Source: Thiohalobacter sp. (lineage in GTDB: Bacteria > Pseudomonadota > Gammaproteobacteria > DSM-19610). Taken from it: a stretch of DNA of 45,147 nt. The position numbers and the translations under genes were made by a program. The notes beneath the pieces were generated by a model, which saw only the letters and a program-made list of their open reading frames with translations, was not told the DNA's origin and ran no database searches. The DNA lies in NCBI GenBank assembly GCA_026984515.1, contig JALSRZ010000116.1, forward strand, positions 1 to 45,147, in the 5' to 3' direction. Below are positions 27,225 through 45,025 of the stretch, one piece after another. Within the stretch, counting starts at the first letter, position 1; each line of letters begins with the position of its first letter.

Positions 27225-27229
27225 CGCGC

Positions 27230-27778: not shown

Positions 27779-27958
27779 CCCGCATTTCTCACCGGGTTCC
27801 GTAGCGAGGCGGTGGCAGGTCGTGTGATCAGCGGCGTTCGCGACCGAGGGCCGCGCAGGCATAGTCGACACTATGTCGAGCAGCCCGACCGAGTGAACGC
27901 CGCTTAGCGCGCGGCATGACGCCGCCGCAGCAGGAAGTCGGTGAGAAATGCGGGCTAG
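27775..27958 (+). mobile_element. 184-bp MITE-like repeat, copy 3 (reference copy)
   Basis: A complete element. The terminal inverted repeat CTAGCCCGCATTTCTCACCG occurs at both ends (27775-27794 and its complement ending 27958). A second, inner inverted repeat GCGGCGTTC/GAACGCCGC (27831-27839 and 27895-27903) surrounds a central near-palindrome CATAGTCGACACTATG. The RNA or single-stranded DNA could fold into a long nested hairpin. It lies between the convergent regA and motY genes, and its left CTAG forms the regA stop. Confidence 0.92.
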
Positions 27959-27991
27959 ACATCATAGTGTTAACAGGCCCTAAGGGAACCT

Positions 27992-28873: not shown

Positions 28874-29242
28874 ACCCGGTGTTTCGACGCCCGCACAGTG
28901 CTTCTTGAGTACCGGGCTGGAATCGGATAACTGGCACAACATCTGCTAGGGATATGTCACAATGTGACATTGTCACTAACTGTACGAAATTCAGCCACAT
29001 TCTCCCAATAAAAACATAGACTTTTGTCAGCATGACATGACAAATCGACAGATTGCCGTCTTATCCTGTCGAATAAGCATACAGTTCCTGAAATCCTGCC
29101 ACAGCCCCTGCAAGACTCTATTATTTATATATATTACAACACGATATATAAAATACAGGTGTCGGTATTCCTGCTGACGGTATTTTTAATGTTAGCTTTT
29201 CCTTATTTTCTAATTAGCTAAATAGTCATGATTGAATGGTTA

Positions 29243-29344: not shown

Positions 29345-29360
29345 TGGCCCGCAACCTGCA
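29345..29360 (+). promoter_or_regulatory. Sigma-54 (RpoN) type -24/-12 promoter of the sulfur operon
   Basis: TGGCCCGCAACCTGCA has GG and GC with a 10-base gap and fits TGGCACG-N4-TTGCW closely. It shares TGGCCCG and the C-TGC end with the site upstream of 22801. Transcription would begin near 29371, about 105 bases before the first gene. Confidence 0.7.
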
Positions 29361-29477: not shown

Positions 29478-29909
29478 ATGGAAAATTTTACGCCAGTGGC
29501 ATCACTGGTCGGTGGAGTATTGATTGGACTCGCCGGCGCTGCCATGCTGTTTTTCAACGCCAGGATCGCCGGCATCAGCGGTATCTACGGTGGTCTGCTG
29601 AACGCCAAAAAAGGGGATACCCTGTGGCGGGCTGTATTCATCGCAGGTCTGCTGAGCGGCGGATTGATCCTCAGTCTGTTTCAGCCCCAGATGCTCGAAT
29701 TCGAAATGAACCGTACCACCGGGGCCATCATCGTCGCCGGCCTGCTGGTCGGTTTCGGCGCCCGCCTGGGGAATGGCTGTACCAGTGGCCACGGTGTCTG
29801 TGGTATCGGCCGCCTCGCACCACGCTCCATCGTCGCTGCCATCACCTTCATCATCACCGGCTCCATCACTGCCATCGTCATCAACCACTTTTTTGGAGGG
29901 AGCATCTGA
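29478..29909 (+). CDS. YeeE/YedE-family transporter, first half
   Basis: A 143-residue membrane protein with four or so helices. It has the family motif GFGARLGNGCTSGHGVCG, with cysteines C101 and C108 in the region that lines the pathway in YeeE-type thiosulfate importers. Short YeeE/YedE halves encoded as pairs (PmpA/PmpB style) are common near sulfide-oxidation genes. It likely moves a reduced sulfur compound or sulfane sulfur across the inner membrane; the substrate is inferred. It is the first gene of an eleven-gene unit, and its stop overlaps the next start. Confidence 0.85.
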   Translation: MENFTPVASLVGGVLIGLAGAAMLFFNARIAGISGIYGGLLNAKKGDTLWRAVFIAGLLSGGLILSLFQPQMLEFEMNRTTGAIIVAGLLVGFGARLGNGCTSGHGVCGIGRLAPRSIVAAITFIITGSITAIVINHFFGGSI

Positions 29910-30403
29910 TGGCTGCCTATATCGTTCTGTTTCTCTGTGGCCTGATGTTCTCCCTGGGGCTCGGCATTTCCGGGATGACCCAGCCCGAAAAAGTCATCGG
30001 TTTCCTGGATTTCGTCGGCAACTGGGATCCCAGCCTGATGCTGGTACTACTGGGCGCCGTGATTACCTATTTCATTGCCCAGCGATTCATCCTGGTGCGT
30101 GAAACCTCGGTACTGGGTGATAAATTCCAGTTACCCACCCGCATGGATATCGACCCACAGCTGGTGGTCGGCGCAGCCATGTTTGGTACCGGCTGGGGAA
30201 TGGTGGGCTTCTGCCCGGGGCCGGCCCTGACCTCGTGCATCACCGGCACCACCGAAGTACTCGAATTCGTCATCGCCATGTCACTGGGCATGTACCTGTT
30301 CGGCGCACTGCACCTGCGCTACAGCCGTGAACCGGACGGCGGCGCCAGTCCGCTGGATCACCCGAATACTGCCGGCGCACAGACCTCGGCACGGAGCGCC
30401 TGA
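29909..30403 (+). CDS. YeeE/YedE-family (DUF6691) transporter, second half
   Basis: A 164-residue partner of the preceding protein. It shows LGLGISGMTQPEKVIGFLDF near the N-terminus and GTGWGMVGFCPGPALTS, the second Cys-containing pore motif of the family. The ATG at 29909 shares one base with the previous stop (TGATG) and has GGAGGG upstream. The two halves probably form one transporter. A hydrophilic tail of about 30 residues ends the protein. Confidence 0.85.
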   Translation: MAAYIVLFLCGLMFSLGLGISGMTQPEKVIGFLDFVGNWDPSLMLVLLGAVITYFIAQRFILVRETSVLGDKFQLPTRMDIDPQLVVGAAMFGTGWGMVGFCPGPALTSCITGTTEVLEFVIAMSLGMYLFGALHLRYSREPDGGASPLDHPNTAGAQTSARSA

Positions 30404-30414
30404 GGAACCCGACC

Positions 30415-31221
30415 ATGGTCAAGAGAACCCTTTTTGGCTCCAGTGTACGTCGCCTGGTTACGCTCCTGGTGCTGGGCACTGTGGGCTACGCCGCCTACTC
30501 CAGTTACAAGCGGAGCGATTCGCTGACCGTCGAGACGGACCCGCTCGCCGCACAAAAAGGCGAGGAACTGGCGCGCAACGGGCGCGACGGCATCGCGGCC
30601 TGTTCCAGCTGTCACGGTGAAAACGGTGAAGGCAACTTTGAACTGGGCTACCCGCGCCTGGCCGGCCTGCACCCGAAATACCTCGCCAAGCAGTTGCACG
30701 ATTTCGCCCGTGACCAGATGGATATCGGGGTAAAAGTGGACCCAATCGCGCGCGACTACACGCAAACGCCCCGCATCTACAAGGATCTCACCATCTTCTC
30801 GCCCGGTATTCGCCGCGACCCGATGATGAACCCGATCGCACGGGCGCTGAGCGAGGAGGATATTTTCAACCTCTCTAATTACTACGCCAGCCTGCCCTTC
30901 ACGGCGAAACCGGAGGCCGTCGATTTTGAAACCCTGGAGCGCGGTCACGATCTGGCCCTGCGCGGCAAACCGGAATACATGATGCCGCGCTGCAATGCCT
31001 GCCACGGGCCGGATGGCGAAGGCTTCGGGGAACACTTTCCGCCACTGGCCGGTCAGCCGCCGCAGTACCTGATCAAACAGATCAGCAAATGGCAAAACGG
31101 TGACCGTGACAACGACCAGTTATCGATGATGAAAAACACCGCCAACCTGCTGACCGACGGCGACAAGATCAACGCCGCACGCTACTACAGCAACAAGTCG
31201 TACCAGGTCAACGTGGAGTAA
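30415..31221 (+). CDS. Membrane-anchored dihaem cytochrome c
   Basis: A 268-residue protein with an uncleaved-looking N-terminal helix (about 12-30) and two haem c sites, C63-SSC-H67 and C193-NAC-H197, each in a cytochrome c4-like fold half (HGENGEGNFELGYPRLAG; HGPDGEGFGEHFPPLAGQ). Methionines later in each half could be axial ligands. It would carry electrons on the periplasmic side, probably from the TsdA-like protein encoded next toward terminal oxidases. It is 11 bases after the YeeE pair and 6 before the next gene. Confidence 0.88.
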   Translation: MVKRTLFGSSVRRLVTLLVLGTVGYAAYSSYKRSDSLTVETDPLAAQKGEELARNGRDGIAACSSCHGENGEGNFELGYPRLAGLHPKYLAKQLHDFARDQMDIGVKVDPIARDYTQTPRIYKDLTIFSPGIRRDPMMNPIARALSEEDIFNLSNYYASLPFTAKPEAVDFETLERGHDLALRGKPEYMMPRCNACHGPDGEGFGEHFPPLAGQPPQYLIKQISKWQNGDRDNDQLSMMKNTANLLTDGDKINAARYYSNKSYQVNVE

Positions 31222-31227
31222 GCGGAA

Positions 31228-32136
31228 ATGAAACAGGCATTTTTACCACTACTGTCACTGAGCATCCTCGTTACACTGGCAGCGCCGCTGCACGCTGAAC
31301 CGACCGATCCGCTGGAAGTGCGCCCGACCCTGGTGGAACCACAGGTCAGCCTGCCCACCAACCTGGTCACCGTGCCGGTGGTCAACCCGGGCGAATACTT
31401 TGTGCCACCCCTGGTGGACGACATCCCGGACGACAAGACCGGCGACATGATTCGCTGGGGCCGCAATATTTTTGTGAATACCCAGAAGTATGCGCCGCGT
31501 TATGCCGGCAACGGACTCAACTGTGTCAGCTGTCACCTGTCGGAAGGCCGCCAGCCCTACGCGGCACCGCTGTGGTCGGCCTACCCCATCTACCCGATTC
31601 AGCGTAACAAGACCAAAACGGTGGTGACCTTCCCGCAGCGTATCCAGGATTGTTTCAAGTACAGCCTGGACGGTATCGCACCCACTGTCGACGCACCGGA
31701 AATGGATGCCCTGGTGACCTACGCCAAGTGGCTGTCGACGGCCGCACCGGTAGGTGTGGTGCTACCCGGCCGGGGCTTCGCCAGCATCAAAAAGACGCAT
31801 GACCCCTCTCCTATCGAAGGAGAAATCATCTACAAGTCCCGCTGCGCCCTGTGCCACGGCGAAAACGGAGAAGGCCAGAAAAACCGTGACGGTGTCGGTT
31901 ACATGTTCCCGCCGCTGTGGGGCACGGATTCCTTCAACCGTGCCGCCGGCCTGAATAAAGTCAAGACCGCCGCGCAGTTCATCAAGGCCAACATGCCGCT
32001 GGGCGCCGGCTACACCCTGAACGACGACGAGTCGCTCGATGTCGCTGCCTACATGTGGATTCACTTTCGCCCGGACGATCCGCGCAAGTCGTTTTTCATG
32101 AACCGTTTCGCTCCCAAGCCGGGAGGCGCCAACTGA
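31228..32136 (+). CDS. TsdA-like dihaem cytochrome c
   Basis: A 302-residue periplasmic protein with a signal peptide (about 1-23, ending LHA). Haem sites are C99-VSC-H103 and C206-ALC-H210. The stretch NCVSCHLSEGRQPYAAPL followed by FPQRIQDCFKYSLDG and WLSTAAPVG closely follows thiosulfate dehydrogenase TsdA. C142 corresponds to the cysteine ligand of the active-site haem in that family. TsdA couples two thiosulfates to tetrathionate and can work in reverse. The present substrate may differ, so no symbol is assigned. Confidence 0.75.
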   Translation: MKQAFLPLLSLSILVTLAAPLHAEPTDPLEVRPTLVEPQVSLPTNLVTVPVVNPGEYFVPPLVDDIPDDKTGDMIRWGRNIFVNTQKYAPRYAGNGLNCVSCHLSEGRQPYAAPLWSAYPIYPIQRNKTKTVVTFPQRIQDCFKYSLDGIAPTVDAPEMDALVTYAKWLSTAAPVGVVLPGRGFASIKKTHDPSPIEGEIIYKSRCALCHGENGEGQKNRDGVGYMFPPLWGTDSFNRAAGLNKVKTAAQFIKANMPLGAGYTLNDDESLDVAAYMWIHFRPDDPRKSFFMNRFAPKPGGAN

Positions 32137-32137
32137 C

Positions 32138-33802
32138 ATGAGTCCCGCCGAGATCAAACACACACTGGCCGGCCGCTTCTTTCCGTTTACGGAATGGCTG
32201 CCCATGCTGGACGCCGACACCATACGCAGTGACGTCTGGGCCGGCGTGGCGGCAGGCATCCTGATCCTGCCACAGGCCATTGCCCTGGCCACCATGGCCG
32301 GCCTGCCGCCGGAAGTGGGCCTGTACACGTCCATCTTTCCCATCTTCGTCTCGGCGCTGTTCGGCTCCTCCTGGCACGTGCTGTCGGGGCCCAACACCTC
32401 GATCTCTGTCATGGTGGCGACCATCGTGGGTGCCTATGCCAGCATCGGCACACCGGACTGGATCATGTACACACTGACGCTGACGTTCATCGCCGGCGCC
32501 ATCCAGCTGCTGTTCGGCATCCTTAGACTGGGCGCCGTATTCAATTACTTTTCCCACACGGTGATGGTTGCCATCGTCACCGGCGTGGGTGTCATCATCA
32601 TTGTCCAGCAGATCGGCAACTTTTTCGGCATGACCGTCAATCCCGGCGAACCGGTCGAAGACACCCTGTACTCGATCTTTTTCCGCATCCCCGATGCCAA
32701 CTGGTGGGCAGCCTCACTGGGCATCCTGACGGTAGGAAGCGGTATGTTCGTCAAGCGCTTCTTCCCGAAACTCCCCTATATTATTGTTGCCGTGATCGTC
32801 GGCATGCTCGGTGGCTGGCTGCTGGACCTGTTGTTCGGCAGCGGCAACATCAATGTCGACAAGCTGGGTTACCTGTCCCTGGAGGCCCTGCCGCTGTCCG
32901 CACCGGATTTCAGTCCGACCAACTTCTACGAGGCCGCTGAAGGTCTCATCATGGGCGGCTTCATTATCGCTTTCCTTGGGCTGATGCAGTCAGCGGTGAT
33001 TGCCCGCGCCATGGCGGTGCGATCGGGGCAGCACGTGGATATCGACCAGGAGGTCATCGGCCAGGGCCTGTCCAATATCGCTGGCAGCTTTCTTACCTGC
33101 TTCCCGAGTTGCGGCTCTTTCAACCGCAGCGCCTCCAATATCGATATGGGCGGCAGGACCCCGCTGGTCGGTATCGTCTCGGCCATCGTGCTGGCACTGC
33201 TGGTGGTCTTTGCATCGCCGGTAATCGCGCAGATGCCCCTGTCCGTGATGGCCGGCATCCTGTTCCTGGTAGGCGCAGCACTGATCAAGGTAAAGGATAT
33301 CCGCACCCTGCTGTCGGTACGCGGCGAAGCCCGCATCTCTTTCCTGCTGGTCTGCTTCACCACTGTATACGGTGGCCTGCAGTGGGGCGTCCTGCTGGGC
33401 ATCGCGGTATCCATCATTGCCTACATGCGCGCCGTATCGCGGCCAGAATTCGACGTCCTGTTCGAAAACGAAGCGGAACAGTACATGCCGGAAGGCGTCG
33501 ACGACGCGACCGTCGTGCAGCTCTCGGGCAGCCTTTTCTTCGGCTCGACACACACCGTGGAACGCGCGCTGGCAGATATCGCGCGCGACGACCAGCGCGG
33601 CAAACCCCTGATCATTGCCGGTGAGCTCATCGACAACATGGACGACGCGGGCGTCGCCACGCTGGCCCAGGAAGCCCGCAAGCGCAAGGAAGCAGGCAAC
33701 GGCCTGATCCTGTGGCTGCGTGACCATAACCTGGATGAATTACTCAAACGAAACGGTCTGTTCACCCTGCTGGGAACAGGCAACATCCACTACGCCACAT
33801 AA
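32138..33802 (+). CDS. SulP-family anion transporter with STAS domain
   Basis: A 554-residue inner-membrane transporter of the SLC26/SulP family. About a dozen helices (30-430) include LPQAIALATMAGLPPEVGLYTS, quoted in part as LPQAIALATMAGLPPEVGLY, and SGPNTSISVMV. FPSCGSFNRSASNIDMGGRTP is a further core motif. A C-terminal STAS domain (about 440-554) follows. Members move sulfate, bicarbonate or dicarboxylates. In this operon export or import of sulfate or a related oxyanion is plausible. It starts 1 base after the preceding stop. Confidence 0.88.
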   Translation: MSPAEIKHTLAGRFFPFTEWLPMLDADTIRSDVWAGVAAGILILPQAIALATMAGLPPEVGLYTSIFPIFVSALFGSSWHVLSGPNTSISVMVATIVGAYASIGTPDWIMYTLTLTFIAGAIQLLFGILRLGAVFNYFSHTVMVAIVTGVGVIIIVQQIGNFFGMTVNPGEPVEDTLYSIFFRIPDANWWAASLGILTVGSGMFVKRFFPKLPYIIVAVIVGMLGGWLLDLLFGSGNINVDKLGYLSLEALPLSAPDFSPTNFYEAAEGLIMGGFIIAFLGLMQSAVIARAMAVRSGQHVDIDQEVIGQGLSNIAGSFLTCFPSCGSFNRSASNIDMGGRTPLVGIVSAIVLALLVVFASPVIAQMPLSVMAGILFLVGAALIKVKDIRTLLSVRGEARISFLLVCFTTVYGGLQWGVLLGIAVSIIAYMRAVSRPEFDVLFENEAEQYMPEGVDDATVVQLSGSLFFGSTHTVERALADIARDDQRGKPLIIAGELIDNMDDAGVATLAQEARKRKEAGNGLILWLRDHNLDELLKRNGLFTLLGTGNIHYAT

Positions 33803-33815
33803 GGAAGACAGGACA

Positions 33816-34238
33816 ATGATGATCAAACACTGGTTTCTGGCTTGCGTGCTGACACTCGCTGCGGCTTCCGCCAACGCCGTGGAACAGGTCAAGTACCGGG
33901 TTCTTCTACAGGTCAGCGAAAACAGCATCGACAAGATGAACACCGCGCTGAACAACGCGCGCAACCTGCAGGAGCAGTTCGGCCCGGACAATGTCGAGGT
34001 CGAAATCGTGGTCTACGGCGACGGGGTCAATACCCTGAAGTACTATGCCCCGATCCCCATTGGCGACAAGGTGGAGGAGCTGACCACCAAGGGCGTCTAC
34101 ATCGCCATCTGTGAAATCGCCATGCGCAGCCACAAGCTGCGTCCTTCCGACATGCTGCAGCAGGTCCGTTACGTGGATTCCGGCGTTGCCGAGCTGGTCG
34201 AAAAACAGCACGAGGGCTGGGCGTATATCCGCCCCTGA
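33816..34238 (+). CDS. Exported DsrE-family protein
   Basis: A 140-residue protein with a signal peptide (about 1-21, ending ANA) and a DsrE/YchN-like fold: YRVLLQVSEN, the acidic VEVEIVVYGDGV, then YIAICEIAMRSHKL with the conserved cysteine C99. The C-terminus SGVAELVEKQHEGWAYIRP is typical. Cytoplasmic relatives carry persulfide sulfur; this one is periplasmic. The ATG at 33816 (or 33819) starts the signal peptide; an upstream extension overlaps the SulP gene and is not credible. Confidence 0.85.
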   Translation: MMIKHWFLACVLTLAAASANAVEQVKYRVLLQVSENSIDKMNTALNNARNLQEQFGPDNVEVEIVVYGDGVNTLKYYAPIPIGDKVEELTTKGVYIAICEIAMRSHKLRPSDMLQQVRYVDSGVAELVEKQHEGWAYIRP

Positions 34239-34253
34239 CACGGCATACCAGGC

Positions 34254-36095
34254 ATGAAGCACAGACTGACATTACCGGGACTCCTGCTGGCATTCCTGCT
34301 CCAGCTCGCACCGCCGGCACAGGCCGGTGACGGCGAGGTGACCCTGATTCACATCGGCGACCTGCACGGCCACCTGGTGCCGCGCCCCAACATGCGCGAC
34401 GGCGACCCGGATCGTGGCGTCATGGCGGGCGGGCTGGCCTACGTCTATGACCAGGTAAAAAAGATTCGTGCTCGGCACCCGCACAACCTGCTGGTAAACA
34501 CCGGTGACACCGTGCAGGGTTCTGCCGAAGCCCTGTACTCCAGTGGCAAGGCCATGGCGGACATCCTCAACCTGTTTGAAATCGATGCCTTCGCGCCCGG
34601 CAACTGGGACTTTGTCTACGGGCCGGAACGTTTCCGCGAACTGTTTGCCGGGGTTGACGGCCGCAAGCCGATGTTCCACTGGCAGTCGCTGGCGGCCAAC
34701 CTGTACTACGCCACCCTGTATGAATTCCCCGAAACACCCTATGCCGACGTGGCCGGGCAGCGGGTGGTTCCTCCCTACATGATCAAGGAGGTCAACGGGG
34801 TACGCATCGGCATCATCGGCCTGACCGCGGACCGCGGACCACAGGCGGTCAGCACGCGCGTCATGGACGGTTTCTACCTCACCCCGGGCGAAGATGAACT
34901 GGAAGCCGCCATTCCGAAGTTACGTGACCAGGAGAAGGTCGACCTGGTAGTCCTGATTTCGGAACGCGGCCTGGCCGCCAACCTGGAACTGGTGGAAACC
35001 TATCCCGGTATCGACGTCGTATTGTCTTCCGACATGCACGAGGAAACCTGGAAAGTACTGAAATCCCGATCCGGTACGCTGCTGGTCGAGGAAGGCCAGG
35101 ATGGCACCATGGTCGGCGAGATGGACCTGGTCGTCAAGGACGGAAAACTCGCCAGCTGGGACTTCAAGGCGCACCGCATCACGGTTGAAAACAACCAGCC
35201 CGATCCCGTCATCGCCGCAAAGGTCGCGGAGATTCGCAGCGCTTTTGTGAAAGGGGACAAATTCGTACCACACGTAAACCCGATGAACGGCTCGGTACTG
35301 CGAACGCCCATCGACATCGTGATCGGTTATACGAAAGTCGCCCTGCACCGCTCCAATTTTTCCGACGCGGATTCCATGCCCGCCGTTATAGAAGGGTCCT
35401 CACACGACTTCCTCGCCGATGCCTTCAAGGGCGCCTGCGAATCCGACGTCGGCCTGATCCGGGGTTTCCGTTACGGGACACACGTCGCACCCGGCCCCAT
35501 AAAACTGGAAGACATCTACCACTATATTCCGATCGGGCCGCAGATTGCCTGCGGCAAGATCAGCGGCGACGACCTGCGCATGATGATCGAGAACGGCGCC
35601 CAGGGTTCCCTCACCGGCATCATCGGCTACTGGGGCGGCGGCTGGCTGCTGGCATTTTCCGGCATCACCTATGACCTCGACCCGGGCAACGAATGGGGCT
35701 TCCGCGCCAGCAACATCCGCGTCAACGGCGATCCGCTCGACCCGGAAGAATACTATTCCGTCGCGGGTTACTGGTACATGGACCTGCCGGGCAGGATCAA
35801 CCGCTCGTCCGCGCTGGATATCCGCGTACTGAAAGACCGCTTTGGCGGCATCGTCGATGCGACCGCCGTAGTCGCCTACTACCTGCAAACCCTGCCCAGC
35901 CATACCGTCAACCCGCGCCTCAACCGCGTCACACTGATCAAGCCCCTGCCGGCCCCGATCGGTGACAACCGCGAGATCCAGCCGCTGGCCGGCGTTCCGC
36001 ACATCGAATACCTGTACCACAAGGATACCCCGTCCGTCGCCTTCAATGACCAGGGCAGAAAACCGGACCCCGCCGCCGAAAAGGATGACCCGTAA
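34254..36095 (+). CDS. SoxB-like periplasmic metallohydrolase (5'-nucleotidase superfamily)
   Basis: A 613-residue protein with a signal peptide (about 1-24) and two domains: a metallophosphatase core (about 27-330) and a 5'-nucleotidase C-terminal domain (about 350-590). Metal-site motifs include GDLHGHL (D36, H38) and NTGDTVQGSAEALY (D85). The latter and GNWDFVYGPERF read like SoxB. Yet expected positions differ: LISERGL has E237 where a His is usual, and SSDMHEE replaces GHTH. SoxB releases sulfate from SoxYZ-bound thiosulfonate; no SoxYZ, SoxA or SoxX is present, so a different sulfur or phospho-ester substrate is likely. Confidence 0.75.
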   Translation: MKHRLTLPGLLLAFLLQLAPPAQAGDGEVTLIHIGDLHGHLVPRPNMRDGDPDRGVMAGGLAYVYDQVKKIRARHPHNLLVNTGDTVQGSAEALYSSGKAMADILNLFEIDAFAPGNWDFVYGPERFRELFAGVDGRKPMFHWQSLAANLYYATLYEFPETPYADVAGQRVVPPYMIKEVNGVRIGIIGLTADRGPQAVSTRVMDGFYLTPGEDELEAAIPKLRDQEKVDLVVLISERGLAANLELVETYPGIDVVLSSDMHEETWKVLKSRSGTLLVEEGQDGTMVGEMDLVVKDGKLASWDFKAHRITVENNQPDPVIAAKVAEIRSAFVKGDKFVPHVNPMNGSVLRTPIDIVIGYTKVALHRSNFSDADSMPAVIEGSSHDFLADAFKGACESDVGLIRGFRYGTHVAPGPIKLEDIYHYIPIGPQIACGKISGDDLRMMIENGAQGSLTGIIGYWGGGWLLAFSGITYDLDPGNEWGFRASNIRVNGDPLDPEEYYSVAGYWYMDLPGRINRSSALDIRVLKDRFGGIVDATAVVAYYLQTLPSHTVNPRLNRVTLIKPLPAPIGDNREIQPLAGVPHIEYLYHKDTPSVAFNDQGRKPDPAAEKDDP

Positions 36096-38383
36096 TGGCC
36101 GAAAAAATTGCAAGCATAATCCTGCGCGGCAGGCTCCTGTGGATCCTGCTCAGCGTCGCTTTCGTGGCGTGGGCGGCCATGGGCGGACGCAACCTGCACC
36201 TGACCACCGACTACCGGGTCTTCTTCAGCGAGGAAAACCCGCAGCTCACTGCGTTTGAAACCCTGCAGAACACCTACACCAATAACGATAACATCCTGAT
36301 TGTGCTGGCGCCGAAGAAGCACGGCGTCTTTACCCGCGAAACGCTGGGCGCCGTCGAGGCCATTACCGAGGAAGCCTGGCAGATTCCCTTCTCGATCCGG
36401 GTCGATTCATTGACCAACTACCAGCACACCGTGGCAGAGGGCGATGACCTGCTCGTGGGTGACCTGGTGACTGGCGGCGCCGAACTGCTGGACTCGGAAC
36501 TGCGGCGGGTAAAGGAAATCGCCCTGCACGAGCCGCTGTTGCTGCACCGGCTGATATCGACCAGCGGTGAAGTCACCGGTATTAATGTCACCATCCAGAC
36601 CCCCGGCAAGGACCAGGCCACGGAAGTGCCCAGCGTGGTCGCTTTCGCCCGCGACCTGGTAAAGAAATACCAGGCAAGCTACCCCGGCCTGGACATCTAC
36701 CTGACCGGAACGGTGATGATGAACAATGCATTCCCGGAGGCGGCCAAACACGATATGCGCACCCTGGTACCGCTGATGTTCCTGGTTGTGTTTGCGTCCC
36801 TGTGGTTCCTGTTGCGTTCATTGAGCGGCATATTTGCCACCCTGCTGGTCGTCGCATTTTCGATTGCCACCGGTATCGGGCTGGCGGGATGGATGGGCAT
36901 ACGCATGACCCCACCGGTCGGCAGCGCACCTACCATTATCCTGACCCTGGCCGTCGCGGACTGCGTGCACCTGCTGGTCGCCTTTATGCATAACATGCAC
37001 AAGGGGATGGAAAAGCGTGCCGCCATGGCCGAAAGCCTGCGTACCAATTTCACCCCGGTCGCTCTGACCAGCCTGACCACCGCCATCGGCTTCCTCAGCA
37101 TGAACTTCTCGGACGCGCCCCCCTTCCGTGACCTCGGCAATATCGTCGCCATGGGTGTCGTTGCTGCGTGGCTCTACTCGTTTGTCTTTATGCCCTCCCT
37201 GGTCATGCTGCTCCCGGTACGGGTACACGCCAACCAGGAAAAAGCCAGCCACATGATGTCCCGGCTGGGTGAGTTCGTCATCCGCAACCGCGCGCTGCTG
37301 TTCTGGGGCAACCTGGTGTTGCTGGCAGTACTGGCCACCTCCATCACCCGCAACGAACTCAACGACCAGTTTGTCGAGTACTTCGACCAGAGCATCGAAT
37401 TCCGGCGCGCCACCGATTTTGTCACCGAGAACCTCACCGGGATCTACACCATCGACTATTCCCTGGAGACCGGTGGCAGCGGCACACTCAACGAACCTGA
37501 AGCACTGGCCAAAATCGAGGAATTTGCCAACTGGTACCGGCAGCAGCCGGAAGTAATCCACGTCAACGTGGTCACCGATATCGTCAAGCGGCTGAACATG
37601 AACCTGCACGCCGACCAGCGCGACTGGTACCGCATCCCGGAAAGCCGGGAACTGGCTGCACAGTACTTCCTGCTGTACGAGATGTCGCTGCCTTACGGCC
37701 TCGACCTCAACAACCAGATCAATATCGACAAGTCCGCGACGCGCATGACAGTCACCGTGAGCAACCTGACCACCAATGAACTGCTGGGACTCGAAACCCG
37801 CGCCCGTGGCTGGCTGCAGGCCAACGCACCGGCACACATGCACACGGTGGGCGCCAGCCCGGCCATCATGTTTGCGCATATCACTTCACGCAACATCCGC
37901 AGCATGCTGAGCGGCAATGCCATGGCCATGCTGCTGATCTCCTTCCTGCTGATCTTCGCCTTCCGCTCGTTCAAGTACGGCGTGATCAGCCTGATACCCA
38001 ACATCATGCCGGCTGTCATGGGCTTCGGTGTATGGGGGCTGCTGGTCGGGGAAGTGGGTGTTTCGCTGTCGGTCGTGGTCGCCATGACGCTGGGCATCGT
38101 GGTGGATGACACCATACATTTCATGAGCAAGTACCTGCGCGCACGCCGCGAGCAGGGCCTGAGTTCGGAAGACGCCATACGCACGGCATTCTCCAGCGTG
38201 GGCGTCGCGCTGATCATGACCTCGGTGGTGCTGATTGCCGGCTTTATCGTGCTCGCCCTGTCTTCGTTCAAGATGAACGCAGGTATGGGCCTGCTGACAG
38301 CCATCACCATAGGACTGGCGCTGTTTGCGGACTTCCTGTTCCTGCCACCGCTATTGATGAAACTGAAAGGGAAAAACCGATGA
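36095..38383 (+). CDS. RND-superfamily exporter (HAE3/MMPL type)
   Basis: A 762-residue inner-membrane protein with two halves, each a periplasmic domain and a helix bundle. Helices lie near 13-30, 225-380, 400-420 and 600-760. LAVADCVHLLVAFMHNM and TLGIVVDDTIHFMSKYL are the paired family motifs in the bundles. HAE3-type pumps typically move lipids or hydrophobic molecules and are often encoded with LolA-like proteins, as here. The ATG shares one base with the previous stop and the gene overlaps the next by 4 bases. Confidence 0.88.
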   Translation: MAEKIASIILRGRLLWILLSVAFVAWAAMGGRNLHLTTDYRVFFSEENPQLTAFETLQNTYTNNDNILIVLAPKKHGVFTRETLGAVEAITEEAWQIPFSIRVDSLTNYQHTVAEGDDLLVGDLVTGGAELLDSELRRVKEIALHEPLLLHRLISTSGEVTGINVTIQTPGKDQATEVPSVVAFARDLVKKYQASYPGLDIYLTGTVMMNNAFPEAAKHDMRTLVPLMFLVVFASLWFLLRSLSGIFATLLVVAFSIATGIGLAGWMGIRMTPPVGSAPTIILTLAVADCVHLLVAFMHNMHKGMEKRAAMAESLRTNFTPVALTSLTTAIGFLSMNFSDAPPFRDLGNIVAMGVVAAWLYSFVFMPSLVMLLPVRVHANQEKASHMMSRLGEFVIRNRALLFWGNLVLLAVLATSITRNELNDQFVEYFDQSIEFRRATDFVTENLTGIYTIDYSLETGGSGTLNEPEALAKIEEFANWYRQQPEVIHVNVVTDIVKRLNMNLHADQRDWYRIPESRELAAQYFLLYEMSLPYGLDLNNQINIDKSATRMTVTVSNLTTNELLGLETRARGWLQANAPAHMHTVGASPAIMFAHITSRNIRSMLSGNAMAMLLISFLLIFAFRSFKYGVISLIPNIMPAVMGFGVWGLLVGEVGVSLSVVVAMTLGIVVDDTIHFMSKYLRARREQGLSSEDAIRTAFSSVGVALIMTSVVLIAGFIVLALSSFKMNAGMGLLTAITIGLALFADFLFLPPLLMKLKGKNR

Positions 38384-39171
38384 AGACATTTCTGACTTTT
38401 ACACTGCCACTGCTGGCTTCCGTCAGCATGAGCACACCACTGCTTGCCGAAACCCCCGAGGAGCAGGGCATGGCCATTGCCGTAGAGGCCGACAGCCGTG
38501 ACAACGGCTTCGGTGACTTCAGCGCTGACATGCTGATGATCCTGAAAAACAAACAGGGCGAGGAAAGTACCCGCCAGCTGCGCTCCAAAAACCTGGAGGT
38601 TGAAAACGACGGGGACAAGAGCCTCACCATTTTTGACAAGCCGCGTGACGTCCAGGGCACCGCGCTGCTGACCTTTACCCACAAGACCGGGTCCGACGAC
38701 CAGTGGCTGTACCTGCCGGCCCTGAAACGCGTCAAGCGCATCGCCTCCAACAACAAGTCGGGGCCCTTCATGGGCAGCGAGTTTGCCTACGAGGACATCA
38801 GCTCCCAGGAAGTTGAAAAGTACACCTACAAGTACCTGCGGGACGAACAGCTCGACGGCGAGGATGTGTTCGTATTCGAACGCTACCCGGTGGATAAAAA
38901 ATCCGGTTACACCCGCCAGGTGGTATGGATGGACAAATCCGAATACCGCGAGCGCAAGATCGATTACTACGATCGCAAGAACTCCCTGCTGAAAACCCTG
39001 ACATTCAATGACTACCAGCAGTATGAAGGGAAATTCTGGAAGGCCAGCGCAATGAACATGGTCAACCACCAGACCGGCAAGAGCACCCGGCTGGTGTGGA
39101 ACAACTACCGTTTCAATACCGGTCTCAAGGATCGTGACTTCGACCGCAACTCGCTGAAACGGGCGCACTAG
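38380..39171 (+). CDS. LolA-like outer-membrane lipoprotein-sorting protein
   Basis: A 263-residue exported protein (signal peptide about 1-23, ending LLA). Features of the LolA-like family PF17131 are DQWLYLPALKRVKRIASNNKSG, quoted in part as DQWLYLPALKRVKRI, followed by SGPFMGSEFAYEDI and GYTRQVVWMDKSEYRERKIDYYD in segments. It probably shuttles a lipid or hydrophobic ligand between the RND pump encoded upstream and the outer membrane. The start overlaps the pump stop (ATGA). Confidence 0.85.
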   Translation: MKTFLTFTLPLLASVSMSTPLLAETPEEQGMAIAVEADSRDNGFGDFSADMLMILKNKQGEESTRQLRSKNLEVENDGDKSLTIFDKPRDVQGTALLTFTHKTGSDDQWLYLPALKRVKRIASNNKSGPFMGSEFAYEDISSQEVEKYTYKYLRDEQLDGEDVFVFERYPVDKKSGYTRQVVWMDKSEYRERKIDYYDRKNSLLKTLTFNDYQQYEGKFWKASAMNMVNHQTGKSTRLVWNNYRFNTGLKDRDFDRNSLKRAH

Positions 39172-39187
39172 GGGCCCGGGAACCGAC

Positions 39188-40411
39188 ATGCACACCGGAC
39201 TTCCAGTCATCAGGACGGCACTTGCGCTGGGCACACTGCTGCTGTGCGCGGGCAACAGTCTTGCCGATGGCTGGTCGGGTGATGTGGCCACGCAGTGGAA
39301 TGCCTTTGTAAAGGAACCGCTGGCCGATGAGCAGCATCGCAGCTACCTCTCGGTGTCGGCCCAGCCGGAATATTACCGTGAATGGGAGGATGGCAGTCGC
39401 AGCTTCCAGTTCGAACCGTTCGCGCGGGTCAGCCAGTATGACTCCAAACGCACCCACGTCGACATACGCGAGCTGAATTTCGGCATGGTGGAAGACAACT
39501 GGGAGCTCACAGCGGGCATCAGCAAGGTGTTCTGGGGCATGACCGAGTCACAGCACCTGGTCGACATCATCAACCAGGACGACCTGGTGGAAAACACCGA
39601 CGGCGAGGACAAACTGGGGCAGCCCATGCTGAACCTGACCCTGGTCAGTGACTACGGCAACCTCGACCTGTTCGTATTGCCCGGGTTTCGTACCCGGACC
39701 TTTGCAGGCCCGGAAGGTCGACCGCGCTTCGGCTTCCAGCTCGTCGACCAGAACAACCCGGAGTACGAATCGGGCGCGGAAGAAAAACACATCGACCTCG
39801 CCGCCCGCTGGTTCCAGATGATCGGTGACTGGGAAGTCGCGGTTTCCCAGTTCAGGGGCACTTCCAGGGAACCGGGGTTCATGCTGAAAAGCCCCGGGGC
39901 ACCGGGATCCCCGCAACTGGTCCCCTTCTACAGCCAGATCAATCATACCGGCCTGGAAATCCAGGGCGTATTCGGTGCCTGGTTATGGAAATTCGAGGGG
40001 ATACGCGTCAACGGTTTCAAGGAACGCGGCGTAAAAAGCCGTTCCTACTTTGCCAGCGACTTCGGTTTTGAATACACCTTTGTACTGGAAAACGGTTTCG
40101 AGATTGGCGCGCTGATGGAATACAACTGGGACCAGCGTGGCCGTGATGCATTTACCCAGTTCCAGAACGACGTGCTGGTCGGCACACGGCTGACCTTCAA
40201 CGACGTGCAAAGCACCCAGATACTGGCGGGCGTGATGATCGACGCAGGCAGTGCAGGGCGCAGTTACAACGTGGAAGCGGAGCGGCGTATCGGGGACAAC
40301 TGGAAACTGTCCCTGGAAGCCCGTGGCGTGTTCCACGTCAAACCCGGGGATTTCCTGTACCAGTTCCGGCGGGACAATTCGCTGCGGATCAACCTGGCGA
40401 GATATTTCTGA
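39188..40411 (+). CDS. Outer-membrane beta-barrel protein of the RND/LolA unit
   Basis: A 407-residue exported protein with a signal peptide (about 1-26, ending LAD) and amphipathic strands throughout, ending in INLARYF with the C-terminal aromatic of outer-membrane barrels. It resembles porin-like proteins commonly encoded after RND exporter and LolA-like genes, but I cannot name the family firmly. With its neighbours it would complete a path across the envelope. No ligand-binding motif is visible. Confidence 0.7.
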   Translation: MHTGLPVIRTALALGTLLLCAGNSLADGWSGDVATQWNAFVKEPLADEQHRSYLSVSAQPEYYREWEDGSRSFQFEPFARVSQYDSKRTHVDIRELNFGMVEDNWELTAGISKVFWGMTESQHLVDIINQDDLVENTDGEDKLGQPMLNLTLVSDYGNLDLFVLPGFRTRTFAGPEGRPRFGFQLVDQNNPEYESGAEEKHIDLAARWFQMIGDWEVAVSQFRGTSREPGFMLKSPGAPGSPQLVPFYSQINHTGLEIQGVFGAWLWKFEGIRVNGFKERGVKSRSYFASDFGFEYTFVLENGFEIGALMEYNWDQRGRDAFTQFQNDVLVGTRLTFNDVQSTQILAGVMIDAGSAGRSYNVEAERRIGDNWKLSLEARGVFHVKPGDFLYQFRRDNSLRINLARYF

Positions 40412-40437
40412 GAATCAGTATAAATGAGGCGGGCAAC

Positions 40438-41232
40438 ATGATGAACCAGTTACACACTACTCCATCCGAGATTACGGATATAAACAGCTTGAAATGCAAA
40501 TCAACCCGAAACGGCTCCAAGATATTCATCGTCGGGCACCAGGATTTCTCCCTGGACAGCCTCGCCAGTATGCTGGAATCAGCCGGCGACAACTACCTGG
40601 TTTCCTGTGTCGAACCCGGGGACGCCTGCATGGCCAAGTTCGTGGCCGCCGAACCGGATGTGCTGTTGATCCAGAACGAGGTACTTAGGGAACCCATCGA
40701 GCAGTTTATACAGGGCATCCTGGGGGAGTTCCCGGATATACGCTTCCTGGTGTTCGGCAAGAACATGAGTGACGACCACCTGTACCGCCTGGTGCGCTGC
40801 GGCATCCACGGCTACGTCAACGAGAGAATGAGCGGCGACCACATCAAGCGCGCACTGGAGTCTGTCATTGCCGGGCAGACCTGGATCGAACGCCATATCA
40901 TGGAGCGCTTTATCTCGACCCAGCACGATCTCGACCAGGTAATGGAAGACCAGTTCTACGCCAGGATCGAGCAGCTCTGCACCGGTCTCACCCGGCGTGA
41001 AACCGAGATACTCTGTGAAGTCGTAAAAGGGCTGGCCATCAAGCAGATCGCCGAGGAAGTACACCTCTCCCACCAGGGTGTAAAGATGCACCTTGCCAAA
41101 CTGTTCAGGAAGTTCAAGGTCAGCAACCGCAATCAGCTGATCCTGGCCACATTCGACGAAATAAGCCCGGTCAGGGACCTTTCAATCCTGCTGCGCAACG
41201 GCCTGACCCGCAGGATGGAATCTGCCGACTGA
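40438..41232 (+). CDS. LuxR-family regulator with degenerate receiver domain
   Basis: A 264-residue protein with a receiver-like domain (about 27-145) and a LuxR/NarL helix-turn-helix (about 182-240; LTRRETEILCEVVKGLAIKQIA and VKMHLAKLFRKF). The receiver lacks key residues: the acidic pair is replaced by G33-H34 in IVGHQD, and the phosphoacceptor Asp by Q79 in DVLLIQNEVL. It therefore probably does not take phosphate. Being the last gene of the operon, it may regulate it or a downstream target. GAGG precedes the start. Confidence 0.82.
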   Translation: MMNQLHTTPSEITDINSLKCKSTRNGSKIFIVGHQDFSLDSLASMLESAGDNYLVSCVEPGDACMAKFVAAEPDVLLIQNEVLREPIEQFIQGILGEFPDIRFLVFGKNMSDDHLYRLVRCGIHGYVNERMSGDHIKRALESVIAGQTWIERHIMERFISTQHDLDQVMEDQFYARIEQLCTGLTRRETEILCEVVKGLAIKQIAEEVHLSHQGVKMHLAKLFRKFKVSNRNQLILATFDEISPVRDLSILLRNGLTRRMESAD

Positions 41233-41261: not shown

Positions 41262-41287
41262 GCCCGGCCCCGCTGCCGGGCTTTTTT
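41262..41287 (+). terminator. Rho-independent terminator of the eleven-gene operon
   Basis: GCCCGGC pairs with GCCGGGC around a six-base loop and is followed by six T. It lies 30 bases after the LuxR stop and closes the operon begun at 29478. Confidence 0.9.
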
Positions 41288-41367: not shown

Positions 41368-41511
41368 CACTATGTCTATGTCTAGCTTTGGGCGCAGGGA
41401 CAAATAGGTTCAAAGCCACTTCTACATCTGCCATCGAACTGTCATGTTTAGCCACGCATTAACAAAATAAATGACGCTGACCTTTTCAGTGCTAATCCCC
41501 GGGAGATGTAC

Positions 41512-43437
41512 ATGTACTTACGCAAGCTGTTACCCGTTTTATGTCTTACCCTGGCAGCCGGTCTTACCCAGGCTGCAACCAGGACCATCACCTTTATAGA
41601 ACTCAATGATCTTCACGCCCACCTGCTGCCGCACAAGGACCTGGTGTCGGATGGCCATGGAGGAACCGTCGTTGCAACCCGTGGCGGCCTGACGCGTATC
41701 GCGACCGCGGTAAAGGCCATTCGCGCTGACAACCCGAACAACATACTCATGAACATCGGCGATACCACCCACGGCGGTGTCGAAGCCCTGTTTTCCATGG
41801 GCAACGCCGTCATGGGACCCTTGAATTCCCTGGGCATCGACGTCGGCGTTGCCGGCAACTGGGACTTTTACTATACCCCGGGGGTCACCCGTGCCCGCTA
41901 TGGCCGCTTCGATACCAGTTTCGGCGGCGTCATCCAGGTGCCGATACCCGGCATGGACGAGATGGTCGGCATCATCCAGCCGAACTTCCCCAACCTGGGA
42001 GCAAATCTATCTGATTTCACAGATTTTTTTCCCATCCTCCCGGATTTCATGCCGGCCACATGGACCACCACCGTGGCGGGCGCAAAAATCGGCTTCATCG
42101 GCCTGACGTCCGACATCGTGGCGGACATGCACCCGCTGCTGGCAACCGGCTTCAACTTTGCCCAGGGGGAAGCGGAACACCTGGATATCGTGCAGCGCTA
42201 CGCCGACCGGTTGCGTAGCAACGGCGCACACCTGGTGGTCGTCATGAGCGAACTGGGCATCCACAAGACCAAACGCCTGGCTGACCTGGTCAAGCCGGGT
42301 TCGGTCGATATGTTCTTCGCCGCGCATACCCACGAGGCACTCTATACGCCCATCACCTCAGACAGCGGGGCACTGGTGGTGGAAGCCGGTAACGATGGCT
42401 ACCTGGGCCGCATGGACGTGGTGGTTGACGTACGCAAGCGCCGCCGCGGCACCACCGTAAAGGTAAAGAGCAAAAACTGGTCGCTGATCGAACTGGATGA
42501 CAGTGTCGCCGATGACCCGGACATGCTGGCACTGGTCAACGAAGCACGTGCACCCTACCTGGGCGACAACGTGTTCCTGGAAGCTCCGCCATTCGTCATG
42601 CAGACCCTGACCCGGTCCATCGATACGGTCATCGGGCATGCCGACAGTCTGGTGGACCGCAAGGATTCACTGGAAAGCACGTTCAACAACGGCTGGGCCG
42701 ACCTGCTGCGCCAGACTACCGGCACAGAACTGGCCATGACGCCCGGTTTCAGGATGGGCGCCACCATCGCCGCCACCGGTTCCGTGTACGAGGACGGTGC
42801 CGTTGCCGACGGCGCCATCACCATCGAGGACGCCTACCGCTTCTTCCCGATGGCCTACTCGATCGCGACGGCCCAGGTGACCGGCAAGCGCATGCGGGAA
42901 GTCATCGAGGAAACACTGACCAAGGCCTACTCCCCGGATGTATTCAAACAGCGCGGCGGCTGGAACTACGGGTACGCCGGCCTGGATATATCGGTGGATC
43001 TTGCCGCACCGGACGGCCAGCGCATCCAGTCGATGCGTTACAGCGACAGTGGTGTGGCGGTAGCAGACAGTGATCTCATCAGTATTACCGGTTGCCGGCG
43101 TACGCCCATCGAGACCGGCGCATTCCTGTGCAGCTACGAAGGTTTCACCAACATCGAACCGGTGATCGGTGGCGGGCCGGGTCCGTTTGACCAGTTACCC
43201 ATCCAGGCAGTCGAACTGTTTCAGCAGGCGCTGGCGGCCAACCTGTTCAACGGCAGCCGGGTGAGCTTCACGGATACCAGCCATACGCCACGCTGGCCGG
43301 ACACCGAATTCATCCAGCCACTGGACGGCGCAGGCGCGCCCACCGGCGCCAATGGCGGCGCAGAGGACTGCGGTATGTTCGCCTTCCTGTGCGGTGGTAG
43401 TGGCGGATTCGGAGGTGGTGGATTCTTCGGATTCTGA
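41512..43437 (+). CDS. Second SoxB-like metallohydrolase with Gly/Phe-rich tail
   Basis: A 641-residue exported protein (signal peptide about 1-21, ending QAA) of the metallophosphatase/5'-nucleotidase superfamily. Motifs are NDLHAHL (D33, H35), NIGDTTHGG (D84), GNWDFYYTPG (N116) and AAHTHEAL (H272, H274). As in its paralogue, a Glu (E247, MSELG) stands where the core His is usual. An insert at about 125-185 and a tail CGMFAFLCGGSGGFGGGG-FFGF are unusual. The ATG at 41512 has GGGAG 6 bases upstream; the ATG at 41506 has none. Its own promoter is likely, since a terminator precedes it. Confidence 0.78.
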   Translation: MYLRKLLPVLCLTLAAGLTQAATRTITFIELNDLHAHLLPHKDLVSDGHGGTVVATRGGLTRIATAVKAIRADNPNNILMNIGDTTHGGVEALFSMGNAVMGPLNSLGIDVGVAGNWDFYYTPGVTRARYGRFDTSFGGVIQVPIPGMDEMVGIIQPNFPNLGANLSDFTDFFPILPDFMPATWTTTVAGAKIGFIGLTSDIVADMHPLLATGFNFAQGEAEHLDIVQRYADRLRSNGAHLVVVMSELGIHKTKRLADLVKPGSVDMFFAAHTHEALYTPITSDSGALVVEAGNDGYLGRMDVVVDVRKRRRGTTVKVKSKNWSLIELDDSVADDPDMLALVNEARAPYLGDNVFLEAPPFVMQTLTRSIDTVIGHADSLVDRKDSLESTFNNGWADLLRQTTGTELAMTPGFRMGATIAATGSVYEDGAVADGAITIEDAYRFFPMAYSIATAQVTGKRMREVIEETLTKAYSPDVFKQRGGWNYGYAGLDISVDLAAPDGQRIQSMRYSDSGVAVADSDLISITGCRRTPIETGAFLCSYEGFTNIEPVIGGGPGPFDQLPIQAVELFQQALAANLFNGSRVSFTDTSHTPRWPDTEFIQPLDGAGAPTGANGGAEDCGMFAFLCGGSGGFGGGGFFGF

Positions 43438-43669
43438 TTCCTGACGCTGGCATGCCGGGCCCGCCTGCAAGGGGGTCCGGCATTAATTTCTGCCAACCTG
43501 TCAGTTAGTTACAAAAGTTACATACAGTTTCCTTCGGCTGGATTTTAAAATATAAACAACTACTTATAATTCCTGCCATCGTGCACAGACCCCCGATGTG
43601 GACTACAATCATGGGTATACCCCGGAACCCTGCCAGTTTGGCAGTATGAATCATCTTCCCGGAGGAGCC

Positions 43670-45025
43670 ATGAGCAGCAAAAAAATATCCCTTGAAGTGC
43701 AATCGCTGATTGACGCCCAGGACAATCCGTTTGTGCTGATCGATGAGCACTACAACATCGTCTCCGCCAATATCGCTTACAAGCAGGCCTACGGATTCAG
43801 CGAACAGGATATCGTTGAACACAAGTGCTACGAGGTATCACACCGTTCCGACGTACCCTGCCATATGAACGGTGAAGACTGCCCGCACAAACGCGTGTTC
43901 GAAACCCGCAAGCCACACCAGGTACTCCATATTCATTACGATACCCACGCCCGGCCGGAGCACGTGCGCATCAAGGGATCACCGATTTTCGGCCAGGACG
44001 GCACCATGTACCTTGGTGAAGCCGTATTTCCGCTGGCGCACACCGAAGACCTGGACTGCGAACACCAGCGCATGATCGGCAAATCCAAGGCTTTCCAGGG
44101 CTGTATCGAAGCCCTTACCCGCGCGGCGGAAACCGACGCGCCGGTGCTGGTGTGCGGGGAAAGCGGTGTAGGCAAGGACCTGGCCGCAGAATACATTCAC
44201 CGGCGTTCGGATCGCAGCGGTCGCAGCTTTACCATGGTGGATTGCAGCGCCATTTCCGAATCGGTATTTGAAAGTGAACTGTTCGGGCACGAACGCGGCG
44301 CGTTTACCGGTTGCATCGGCCGGCGCTACGGCCTGTTCGAGCAGGCCGACGGCGGCACCCTGTTTTTCAATGAAATCGGCGACCTGCCGCAATCGCTGCA
44401 GGGCCGTCTGCTCAACGCCATGGAAACCGGCCACTTCCGGCGTGTCGGCGGACGCGAATTGCTGAGCGCAGATGCCCGCATCATCTGCGCGACCAGCCAC
44501 AACCTGCGCAAACTGGTCGCCGCCAGCCGTTTCCGCGCCGACCTCTATTACCGCATCGCGGGCATCATCTGTGAAATCCCGGCCCTGCACCAGCGCATCA
44601 GTGATGTACCGGACCTCGCCAGGGCCCTGCTGCACCGCATGGGCGCCAAGGATGACCCCAGTTACCACCTGACCGACGACGCCATCGAGCTACTGTGCCG
44701 GTACGACTACCCCGGCAACGTGCGCGAACTGCGCAATATCCTGCAGCGCGCGGCTTCCCTCAGCACCAACGGCATCATCACCGCGCAGGAGATTCATATC
44801 GAGGAATCGACCGAAACCCGTGGCAACAGCCCGGCGATCCACCTGGTAGACGATAACGGCAACGAACCCTCCATCAAGGGACTGGAATCCCAGTACATTG
44901 CCGAACTGCTGGCGGAGCACCAGGGGAAACGCTCCACGGTGGCACAGATCCTCGGCATCAGCGAGCGCACCCTGTACCGCAAACTGAAACAGTACGGCCT
45001 GCAATCGATCGGCAAGGCCAGCTAG
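43670..45025 (+). CDS. fisR: FisR-like sigma-54-dependent sulfane-sulfur-responsive activator
   Basis: A 451-residue enhancer-binding protein with a PAS-like sensor (about 10-125), AAA+ domain (about 135-365) and Fis-type helix-turn-helix (about 420-445). The sensor has cysteines C53 (HKCYEVSH), C64 (VPCHMNG) and C71 (EDCPHK). These are the very positions I recall as essential for polysulfide sensing in FisR of Cupriavidus pinatubonensis, which supports both identity and the ATG at 43670 (after GGAGGA). Walker A is GESGVGK. Two oddities: GAFTGC instead of GAFTGA, and Asn234 in LFFNEIGDLP where Walker B has Asp. The stop TAG is in the repeat element. Confidence 0.85.
   Translation: MSSKKISLEVQSLIDAQDNPFVLIDEHYNIVSANIAYKQAYGFSEQDIVEHKCYEVSHRSDVPCHMNGEDCPHKRVFETRKPHQVLHIHYDTHARPEHVRIKGSPIFGQDGTMYLGEAVFPLAHTEDLDCEHQRMIGKSKAFQGCIEALTRAAETDAPVLVCGESGVGKDLAAEYIHRRSDRSGRSFTMVDCSAISESVFESELFGHERGAFTGCIGRRYGLFEQADGGTLFFNEIGDLPQSLQGRLLNAMETGHFRRVGGRELLSADARIICATSHNLRKLVAASRFRADLYYRIAGIICEIPALHQRISDVPDLARALLHRMGAKDDPSYHLTDDAIELLCRYDYPGNVRELRNILQRAASLSTNGIITAQEIHIEESTETRGNSPAIHLVDDNGNEPSIKGLESQYIAELLAEHQGKRSTVAQILGISERTLYRKLKQYGLQSIGKAS

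Follow-up and report, generated by a model that had tools for sequence, protein, structure and literature searches.

We analysed a 45,147-nucleotide stretch of DNA from a Thiohalobacter sp. (contig JALSRZ010000116.1 of assembly GCA_026984515.1; the whole stretch is called the window below), part of a 3.4 Mb genome, and within it an operon of eleven genes, g1 to g11, in which a block of sulfur proteins is joined to a block of envelope transport proteins (Table 1). All eleven genes lie on the + strand between 29478 and 41232, and the intergenic distances from g1 to g11 are, in order, -1, 11, 6, 1, 13, 15, -1, -4, 16 and 26 bp; the starts of g2 and g6 were corrected to 29909 and 33816 from the long starts of the mechanically called open reading frames. 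An earlier note on this DNA had described eleven same-strand genes with overlaps or gaps of under 30 bases and a closing terminator, and this layout was borne out: no distance falls outside -4 to +26 bp, and a single strong + strand terminator is present, at 41262-41281. The frame of the RND gene g8 overlaps both of its neighbours, the SoxB-like gene by 1 nt and the LolA-like gene by 4 nt, and the sulfur and envelope blocks therefore abut without a gap. A scan of the window found no dividing promoter and no strong terminator inside the operon, and no structured RNA was found in the region at Rfam gathering thresholds. The eleven genes probably form one transcription unit here.

Table 1. Genes and sequence features of the sulfur-envelope operon and its surroundings (window positions)
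Feature	Position	Strand	Evidence
Sigma-54-type -24/-12 site, TGGCAC-N5-CTGC	28932..28947	+	aligned sequence of relatives reads TGGCAC-N5-TTGC
Inverted-repeat footprint TTTGTCAnCATGACATGACAAAT, possible activator site	29023..29051	.	almost unchanged across three Thiohalobacter genomes
Second sigma-54-like site, TGGCCCG-N4-CTGC, about 120 bp 5' of g1	29345..29360	+	TGGCCCGTAACTTGC aligned in G009
g1, PmpA-type half-length YeeE/YedE transporter	29478..29909	+	PF04143 positions 177-307 (C-terminal half)
g2, PmpB-type half-length YeeE/YedE transporter	29909..30403	+	DUF6691 1.4e-42; PF04143 25-110 (N-terminal half), below cut-off
g3, dihaem cytochrome c, TsdB/c4-like electron acceptor	30415..31221	+	CSSCH and CNACH; best PDB match 5LO9
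g4, TsdA-type thiosulfate dehydrogenase/tetrathionate reductase	31228..32136	+	Pfam/NCBIfam SoxA/TsdA cytochrome; 5LO9 E 4.8e-53
g5, SulP (SLC26) anion transporter with STAS domain	32138..33802	+	PF00916 8e-78 and STAS
g6, exported DsrE-family protein	33816..34238	+	N-terminal signal-like sequence; PF02635
g7, exported SoxB-like dimetal hydrolase, distinct subfamily	34254..36095	+	metallophosphatase and 5_nucleotid_C; model closest to SoxB 2WDC
g8, HAE3/MMPL-type RND transporter, 12 transmembrane segments	36095..38383	+	PF03176 5.8e-34
g9, LolA-like periplasmic carrier	38380..39171	+	PF17131 8e-66
g10, outer-membrane beta barrel	39188..40411	+	predicted barrel (model), C-terminal Phe
g11, LuxR/GerE-type regulator	40438..41232	+	PF00196 1e-14
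Intrinsic terminator	41262..41281	+	7 G-C pairs, TTTTTT tail
g12, second SoxB-like exported hydrolase, separate unit	41506..43437	+	5_nucleotid_C and Metallophos; collinear in G009
g13, PAS-domain sigma-54 activator, likely regulator, separate unit	43598..45025	+	PF00158 4e-59, PAS, Fis helix-turn-helix; collinear in G009

The gene assignments of the earlier note were confirmed by Pfam and NCBIfam, and that of g10 by a structure model; some could be sharpened, the cytochromes to a TsdB/TsdA pair, the YeeE/YedE proteins to the PmpAB type and the barrel to an AlgE/porin-like fold. In the PDB, g3 is most like the TsdBA fusion 5LO9 (E 2.3e-28), with cytochromes c4 next, while g4 matches the same structure and also solved thiosulfate dehydrogenases (E about 1e-49), the two proteins corresponding to the two halves of the fusion. 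Both CxxCH motifs of g4 (C99/C102/H103 and C206/C209/H210), together with Cys142 and Met256, are invariant among 11 homologues, and Cys142 aligns with the axial haem ligand of TsdA. By sequence, g3 and g4 are thus a TsdB/TsdA pair with the diagnostic haem-ligating Cys, and oxidation of thiosulfate to tetrathionate is their predicted activity; they retain the haem motifs and Cys ligand of A. vinosum TsdA and the 5LO9 fusion but, unlike these, sit in a larger operon. The transporters g1 and g2 match the C- and N-terminal halves of the full-length YeeE family, g2 weakly, and share the half-length PmpA/PmpB architecture of the SoxT/TsuA/PmpAB group of YeeE-family sulfur importers, in which PmpA corresponds to the C-terminal half of full-length YeeE (PMC11582611). 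PDB matches of g5 are prestin, SULTR4.1 and sulfate transporters. In g6, which matches MTH1491 (1L1S, E 1.8e-18), Cys98 is almost invariant.

The product of g7 had been called SoxB-like, and the fold and the likeness stand, but the protein is not SoxB itself. Its model (predicted local distance difference test score 84) has the SoxB/5'-nucleotidase fold, and is closest to SoxB 2WDC (template modelling score 0.70/0.79, E 6e-36), and it shares with SoxB most metal ligands, export and a sulfur context. Against the SoxB family TIGR04486, however, it scores 193 bits where the cut-off is 550, and although its dimetal-site residues D36, H38, D85, N117, E237, D260 and H262 are invariant in 25 sequences, E237 and D260 occupy positions that are His in T. 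thermophilus SoxB. Canonical SoxB was rejected on the family score and these two altered ligands. The operon also differs from a SoxB system in having no SoxY or SoxZ among its eleven genes, as annotated by Pfam and NCBIfam. At E 1e-120 the SoxB-like query recovered only the query genome among 259 genomes sampled across the phylum, and the subfamily is therefore rare; a relative labelled Thiohalobacter carries a protein 84% identical, and plasmid-borne copies are just distant (<30% identity) 5'-nucleotidase-family proteins. A homologue of the second SoxB-like protein, g12, sits within the cluster in Sulfuriferula-type loci. Two same-genus genomes, G005 and G015, gave 13 and 15 SoxB-like/5'-nucleotidase-family matches, which suggests expansion of paralogues in the genus.

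In the envelope block, g8 matches the HAE3 family TIGR00921 at E 2e-45 (155 bits against a 352-bit cut-off) and has 12 hydrophobic segments, and g9 is close to the solved LolA-like protein 3BK5 (E 1.3e-99). No Pfam family matches g10; the predicted barrel (local distance score 76) is nearest in fold to AlgE and porins (E about 1e-9, template modelling score about 0.5), a likeness at fold level only, so that it leaves the substrate unfixed. RND homologues at E 1e-150 occur in 121 of 369 genomes of the class. The window's own genome has a second RND-LolA pair (G000:C139, locus L085 5246-12453), 60% and 71% identical to g8 and g9, with a DrsE_2 protein on one side and another exported DsrE on the other. 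Exported DsrE genes lie near the stand-alone RND in 6 of 14 loci examined, a proximity that is only suggestive because some of these loci share ancestral gene order. On a short contig with no sulfur core in view, L118 (G607:C94) holds a second, closely similar RND-LolA pair. One RND match, G155:C7:336001-337557, lies in an open frame whose length, 24526 aa, is implausible; the sequence there is likely masked or otherwise odd.

The composite of two blocks proposed in the earlier note is real and conserved, with gene order kept in both Thiohalobacter relatives that have the cluster: G009 keeps all eleven genes in order and G011 ten, up to the contig end, protein identity being mostly 62-87%. Five genes, encoding the dihaem cytochrome, TsdA, SulP, exported DsrE and the SoxB-like protein, make up a sulfur core that is complete in 17 of 18 loci from gamma- and betaproteobacteria (the contig of the 18th starts too late to show the whole core); these loci come from kinship searches and are not independent draws. 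Eleven of the 18 loci also have the RND-LolA-barrel module, or most of it, next to the core, and three gene orders occur among them. In G106, a gammaproteobacterium from a different family, the order is DsrE-SoxB-like-RND-LolA-barrel on a contig that begins just ahead of DsrE, and four Sulfuriferula-family genomes have barrel-RND-LolA-second SoxB-like-dihaem-TsdA-TsdA-SulP-DsrE-SoxB-like-YeeE-YeeE. A fifth genome of that family (G402; L080/L112) keeps LolA and two barrels without an RND between barrel and LolA; the missing RND of this otherwise kept cluster may be a lineage-specific loss or an assembly gap. Two Burkholderiales-level genomes (G564 and G607) have the core, a barrel after the SoxB-like gene and a divergently transcribed RND-LolA pair. 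The betaproteobacterial loci have two TsdA copies, as does one Chromatiaceae locus, and the YeeE pair of the betaproteobacterial clusters is a different one, about 29% identical to g1, which indicates that the YeeE part is interchangeable. The gene arrangement exceeds chance, being collinear in two other Thiohalobacter genomes and recurring, differently ordered, in betaproteobacteria. What was observed directly is the set of genes, their homologies, the conservation of catalytic residues and the conserved linkage.

The earlier note had named two findings that would speak against a single system: blocks that are separable and rarely adjacent, or independent promoters dividing them. Separable they are, since the module is absent from the stretch read in 7 of the 18 core loci (G386, G496, G215, G768, G777, G778 and G779) and the RND is widespread by itself, but they are not rarely adjacent. 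For G386, in which a different contig carries a barrel/RND pair, only a short stretch was read. No dividing promoter or terminator was found in the window, but the RND-LolA pairs of the two Burkholderiales-level genomes are transcribed divergently. Of 120 sampled Sulfuriferula-order genomes, just three (G385, G564 and G607) have an RND of this type, and each of them carries the core. The sulfur and envelope blocks are thus separable yet repeatedly joined. In a tree of RND proteins, the sulfur-linked copies of beta- and gammaproteobacteria fall in two clades with stand-alone gammaproteobacterial copies between them, but a single clade is not rejected (approximately unbiased test, p = 0.21). Because of this we do not claim independent recruitment of the RND into the two sets of clusters, and claim instead a rearrangement of gene order around a maintained association.

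Upstream of g1, 536 bp align across the three Thiohalobacter genomes, with conserved islands in variable intergenic DNA. One is the site at 28932; nowhere else in the 45 kb window is the sigma-54 consensus matched strictly. Another is the inverted repeat TTTGTCAnCATGACATGACAAAT, and a third the sigma-54-like site at 29345, which is intact in two of the three genomes and lacks one G of the -24 GG in G011. Loose matches to the sigma-54 consensus are frequent by chance, and the evidence for these sites is therefore their conservation rather than the match itself. Together with the activator gene g13 at 43598, the conserved sites suggest sigma-54 control of the operon. A standard sigma-70 promoter at the operon start was considered and dropped, as the scan gave fewer sites than in shuffled sequence. 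As read from its sequence, g11 has a receiver-like N-terminus without the usual phospho-Asp motif. Homologues of g13 lie beside a SoxB-like gene in L025 (4339-5703) and near a stand-alone RND in L089 (12431-13813). Further upstream, window positions 25965-28942 encode a PilS-like histidine kinase, a Fis-type response regulator and a MotY/OmpA protein, all three also upstream in G009; elsewhere, 12414-14078 encodes a 554 aa protein made up mostly of ankyrin repeats.

The earlier note knew of no pathway of this composition; we likewise found no published description of the whole gene set, though closely related pathways are known. The nearest is the TsdA-SoxB route to zero-valent sulfur, to which the RND-LolA-barrel module, SulP, DsrE and an altered SoxB-like site are added here. 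In Erythrobacter flavus 21-3, TsdA and SoxB are each required for extracellular zero-valent sulfur: TsdA makes tetrathionate, and the action of SoxB yields sulfate together with zero-valent sulfur, which is found outside the cell (PMC7608252). Its cluster, with TsdB and extra SoxB-like genes, resembles g3, g4, g7 and the conserved core in combining TsdB, TsdA and SoxB/5'-nucleotidase-family proteins. There the cluster is induced and thiosulfate proceeds through tetrathionate to extracellular S0, whereas here this course is predicted; the searched text of that paper names no RND-LolA-barrel set or DsrE, E. flavus has an SdoA sulfur dioxygenase that this operon lacks, and the E. flavus SoxB that matters is classed with typical SoxB, while g7 belongs to a divergent subfamily (PMC7608252). 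For the envelope block the closest parallel is AmeABCD of Castellaniella defragrans, a cassette of HAE3 RND, LolA-superfamily periplasmic protein and outer-membrane barrel linked to tolerance of hydrophobic monoterpenes (PMC6394551). AmeABCD differs in being linked to monoterpenes rather than sulfur and in its LolA-superfamily family (DUF1329), its DUF1302 barrel and its fourth component, AmeC; g10 has no Pfam family and the operon has no fourth component. A role within a thiocyanate dehydrogenase locus was not adopted: the passages searched of the Thiohalobacter/Guyparkeria genome paper (PMC6504805) give no sign of the gene set, nor does the text of this paper, which covers T. thiocyanaticus HRh1, mention TsdA. 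The passages searched of Sulfuriferula genome papers do not describe the cluster.

Taken as a whole, the locus may couple periplasmic sulfur oxidation to a dedicated trans-envelope carrier, an explanation that we put somewhat short of an even chance. TsdA would join thiosulfate into tetrathionate and pass electrons to the TsdB/c4-like g3; g7 and g12 would split sulfonate groups off polythionates or related sulfane sulfonates to give sulfate and zero-valent sulfur; DsrE may carry sulfane sulfur on its conserved Cys, the PmpAB-type pair may bring it into the cytoplasm and SulP may move oxyanions. RND, LolA-like protein and barrel would move hydrophobic S8 or long polysulfane among inner membrane, periplasm and surface, so that sulfur could be placed outside and recovered later, and g11 and g13 would control expression. 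A core that forms a thiosulfate/polythionate pathway without SoxYZ is probable and well supported, given the biochemistry of TsdA and the E. flavus work. For the transport step we infer, more tentatively than for the whole, that the module moves poorly soluble sulfur: the pathway's product is poorly soluble and the RND is of a hydrophobe type, which makes the module a plausible sulfur mover. The strictest form, a dedicated carrier of zero-valent sulfur (S8/polysulfane) together with a variant SoxB-like hydrolase that makes this sulfur from polythionates without SoxYZ, is unlikely. The transport reading would fit the congener T. thiocyanaticus HRh1: on thiosulfate it forms extracellular sulfur, especially when the pH is under 6 or oxygen is low, and consumes this sulfur afterwards (PMC6504805).

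Several points weigh against coupled oxidation and transport. We infer the substrates of the proteins, the direction of flow and the regulation, and the roles given to SulP and DsrE are guesses. The chemistry of the SoxB-like protein may differ, since two His ligands of the SoxB metal site are exchanged for E237 and D260, and deletion of two extra SoxB-like genes in E. flavus left sulfur globules unaffected (PMC7608252). As the module is missing from the neighbourhood of seven core loci, it is not strictly required for oxidation. The spread of RND-LolA outside sulfur clusters, with a second copy in this genome, means that the general substrate may be a lipid.

Lipid handling is accordingly the main rival to sulfur transport: the module would export or replace envelope lipids or other hydrophobes that are damaged by, or protect against, sulfur and acid stress, and would be co-regulated with the core but stand outside the flow of sulfur. 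This is somewhat unlikely. It gains from the commonness of the RND type without sulfur genes, the second pair included, from HAE3 relatives that move hopanoids or hydrophobes (PMC6394551) and from the membership of g9 in the LolA-like family solved as 3BK5, but a general repair system would not predict an RND restricted to core-bearing genomes in the Sulfuriferula-order sample, nor a sulfur-RND link that recurs in different gene orders. Distinctly less probable is an uptake role, in which barrel, LolA-like protein and RND would bring in extracellular S8 or sulfur from minerals, to be oxidised in periplasm and cytoplasm; against it, those RND pumps that have been characterised work outward. The linked lineages do include Sulfuriferula, with members growing on sulfide minerals or elemental sulfur, although some isolates do not grow on S0 (PMC12285272); a YeeE-type pair is present in the cluster of both lineages, and HRh1 colonies consume their own extracellular sulfur (PMC6504805).

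The enzymes themselves, a TsdBA pair and a SoxB-like hydrolase, point to thiosulfate and polythionates as substrates. The groups attacked by TsdA and by enzymes of the SoxB family are inorganic (S-S and S-SO3), and nothing at the locus points to the organic or lipid-linked sulfur compound that the earlier note had suggested. Oxidation of such a compound, with the module exporting a toxic substrate as AmeABCD does with monoterpenes, is very improbable: g8 and g9 are related to hydrophobe-handling families, but no organosulfur-cleaving enzyme is found among the eleven genes and the named hosts belong to sulfur-oxidising groups. Equally remote is an adjacency by genomic drift in which the blocks share just the operon promoter, for while they are separate in seven loci and the RND type is common elsewhere, synteny already weakens this through adjacency in gamma- and betaproteobacteria in three orders, as do the overlapping frames here and the confinement of the RND to core-bearing genomes in one order sample.

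Extracellular deposits of elemental sulfur are made, and later used, by many sulfur oxidisers; to our knowledge, no route by which this sulfur crosses the outer membrane has been established, though one recent study points to outer-membrane vesicles as part of it (PMC12285230). The SoxB-like subfamily with an altered metal site is now defined, and annotation could mistake its members for SoxB or 5'-nucleotidase. By tying Tsd and SoxB-like enzymes to an RND-LolA-barrel module, the cluster supplies named genes with which outer-membrane sulfur transport becomes testable. If the module is indeed a dedicated carrier of zero-valent sulfur, it would be the first genetically defined route of hydrophobic sulfur across the outer membrane.

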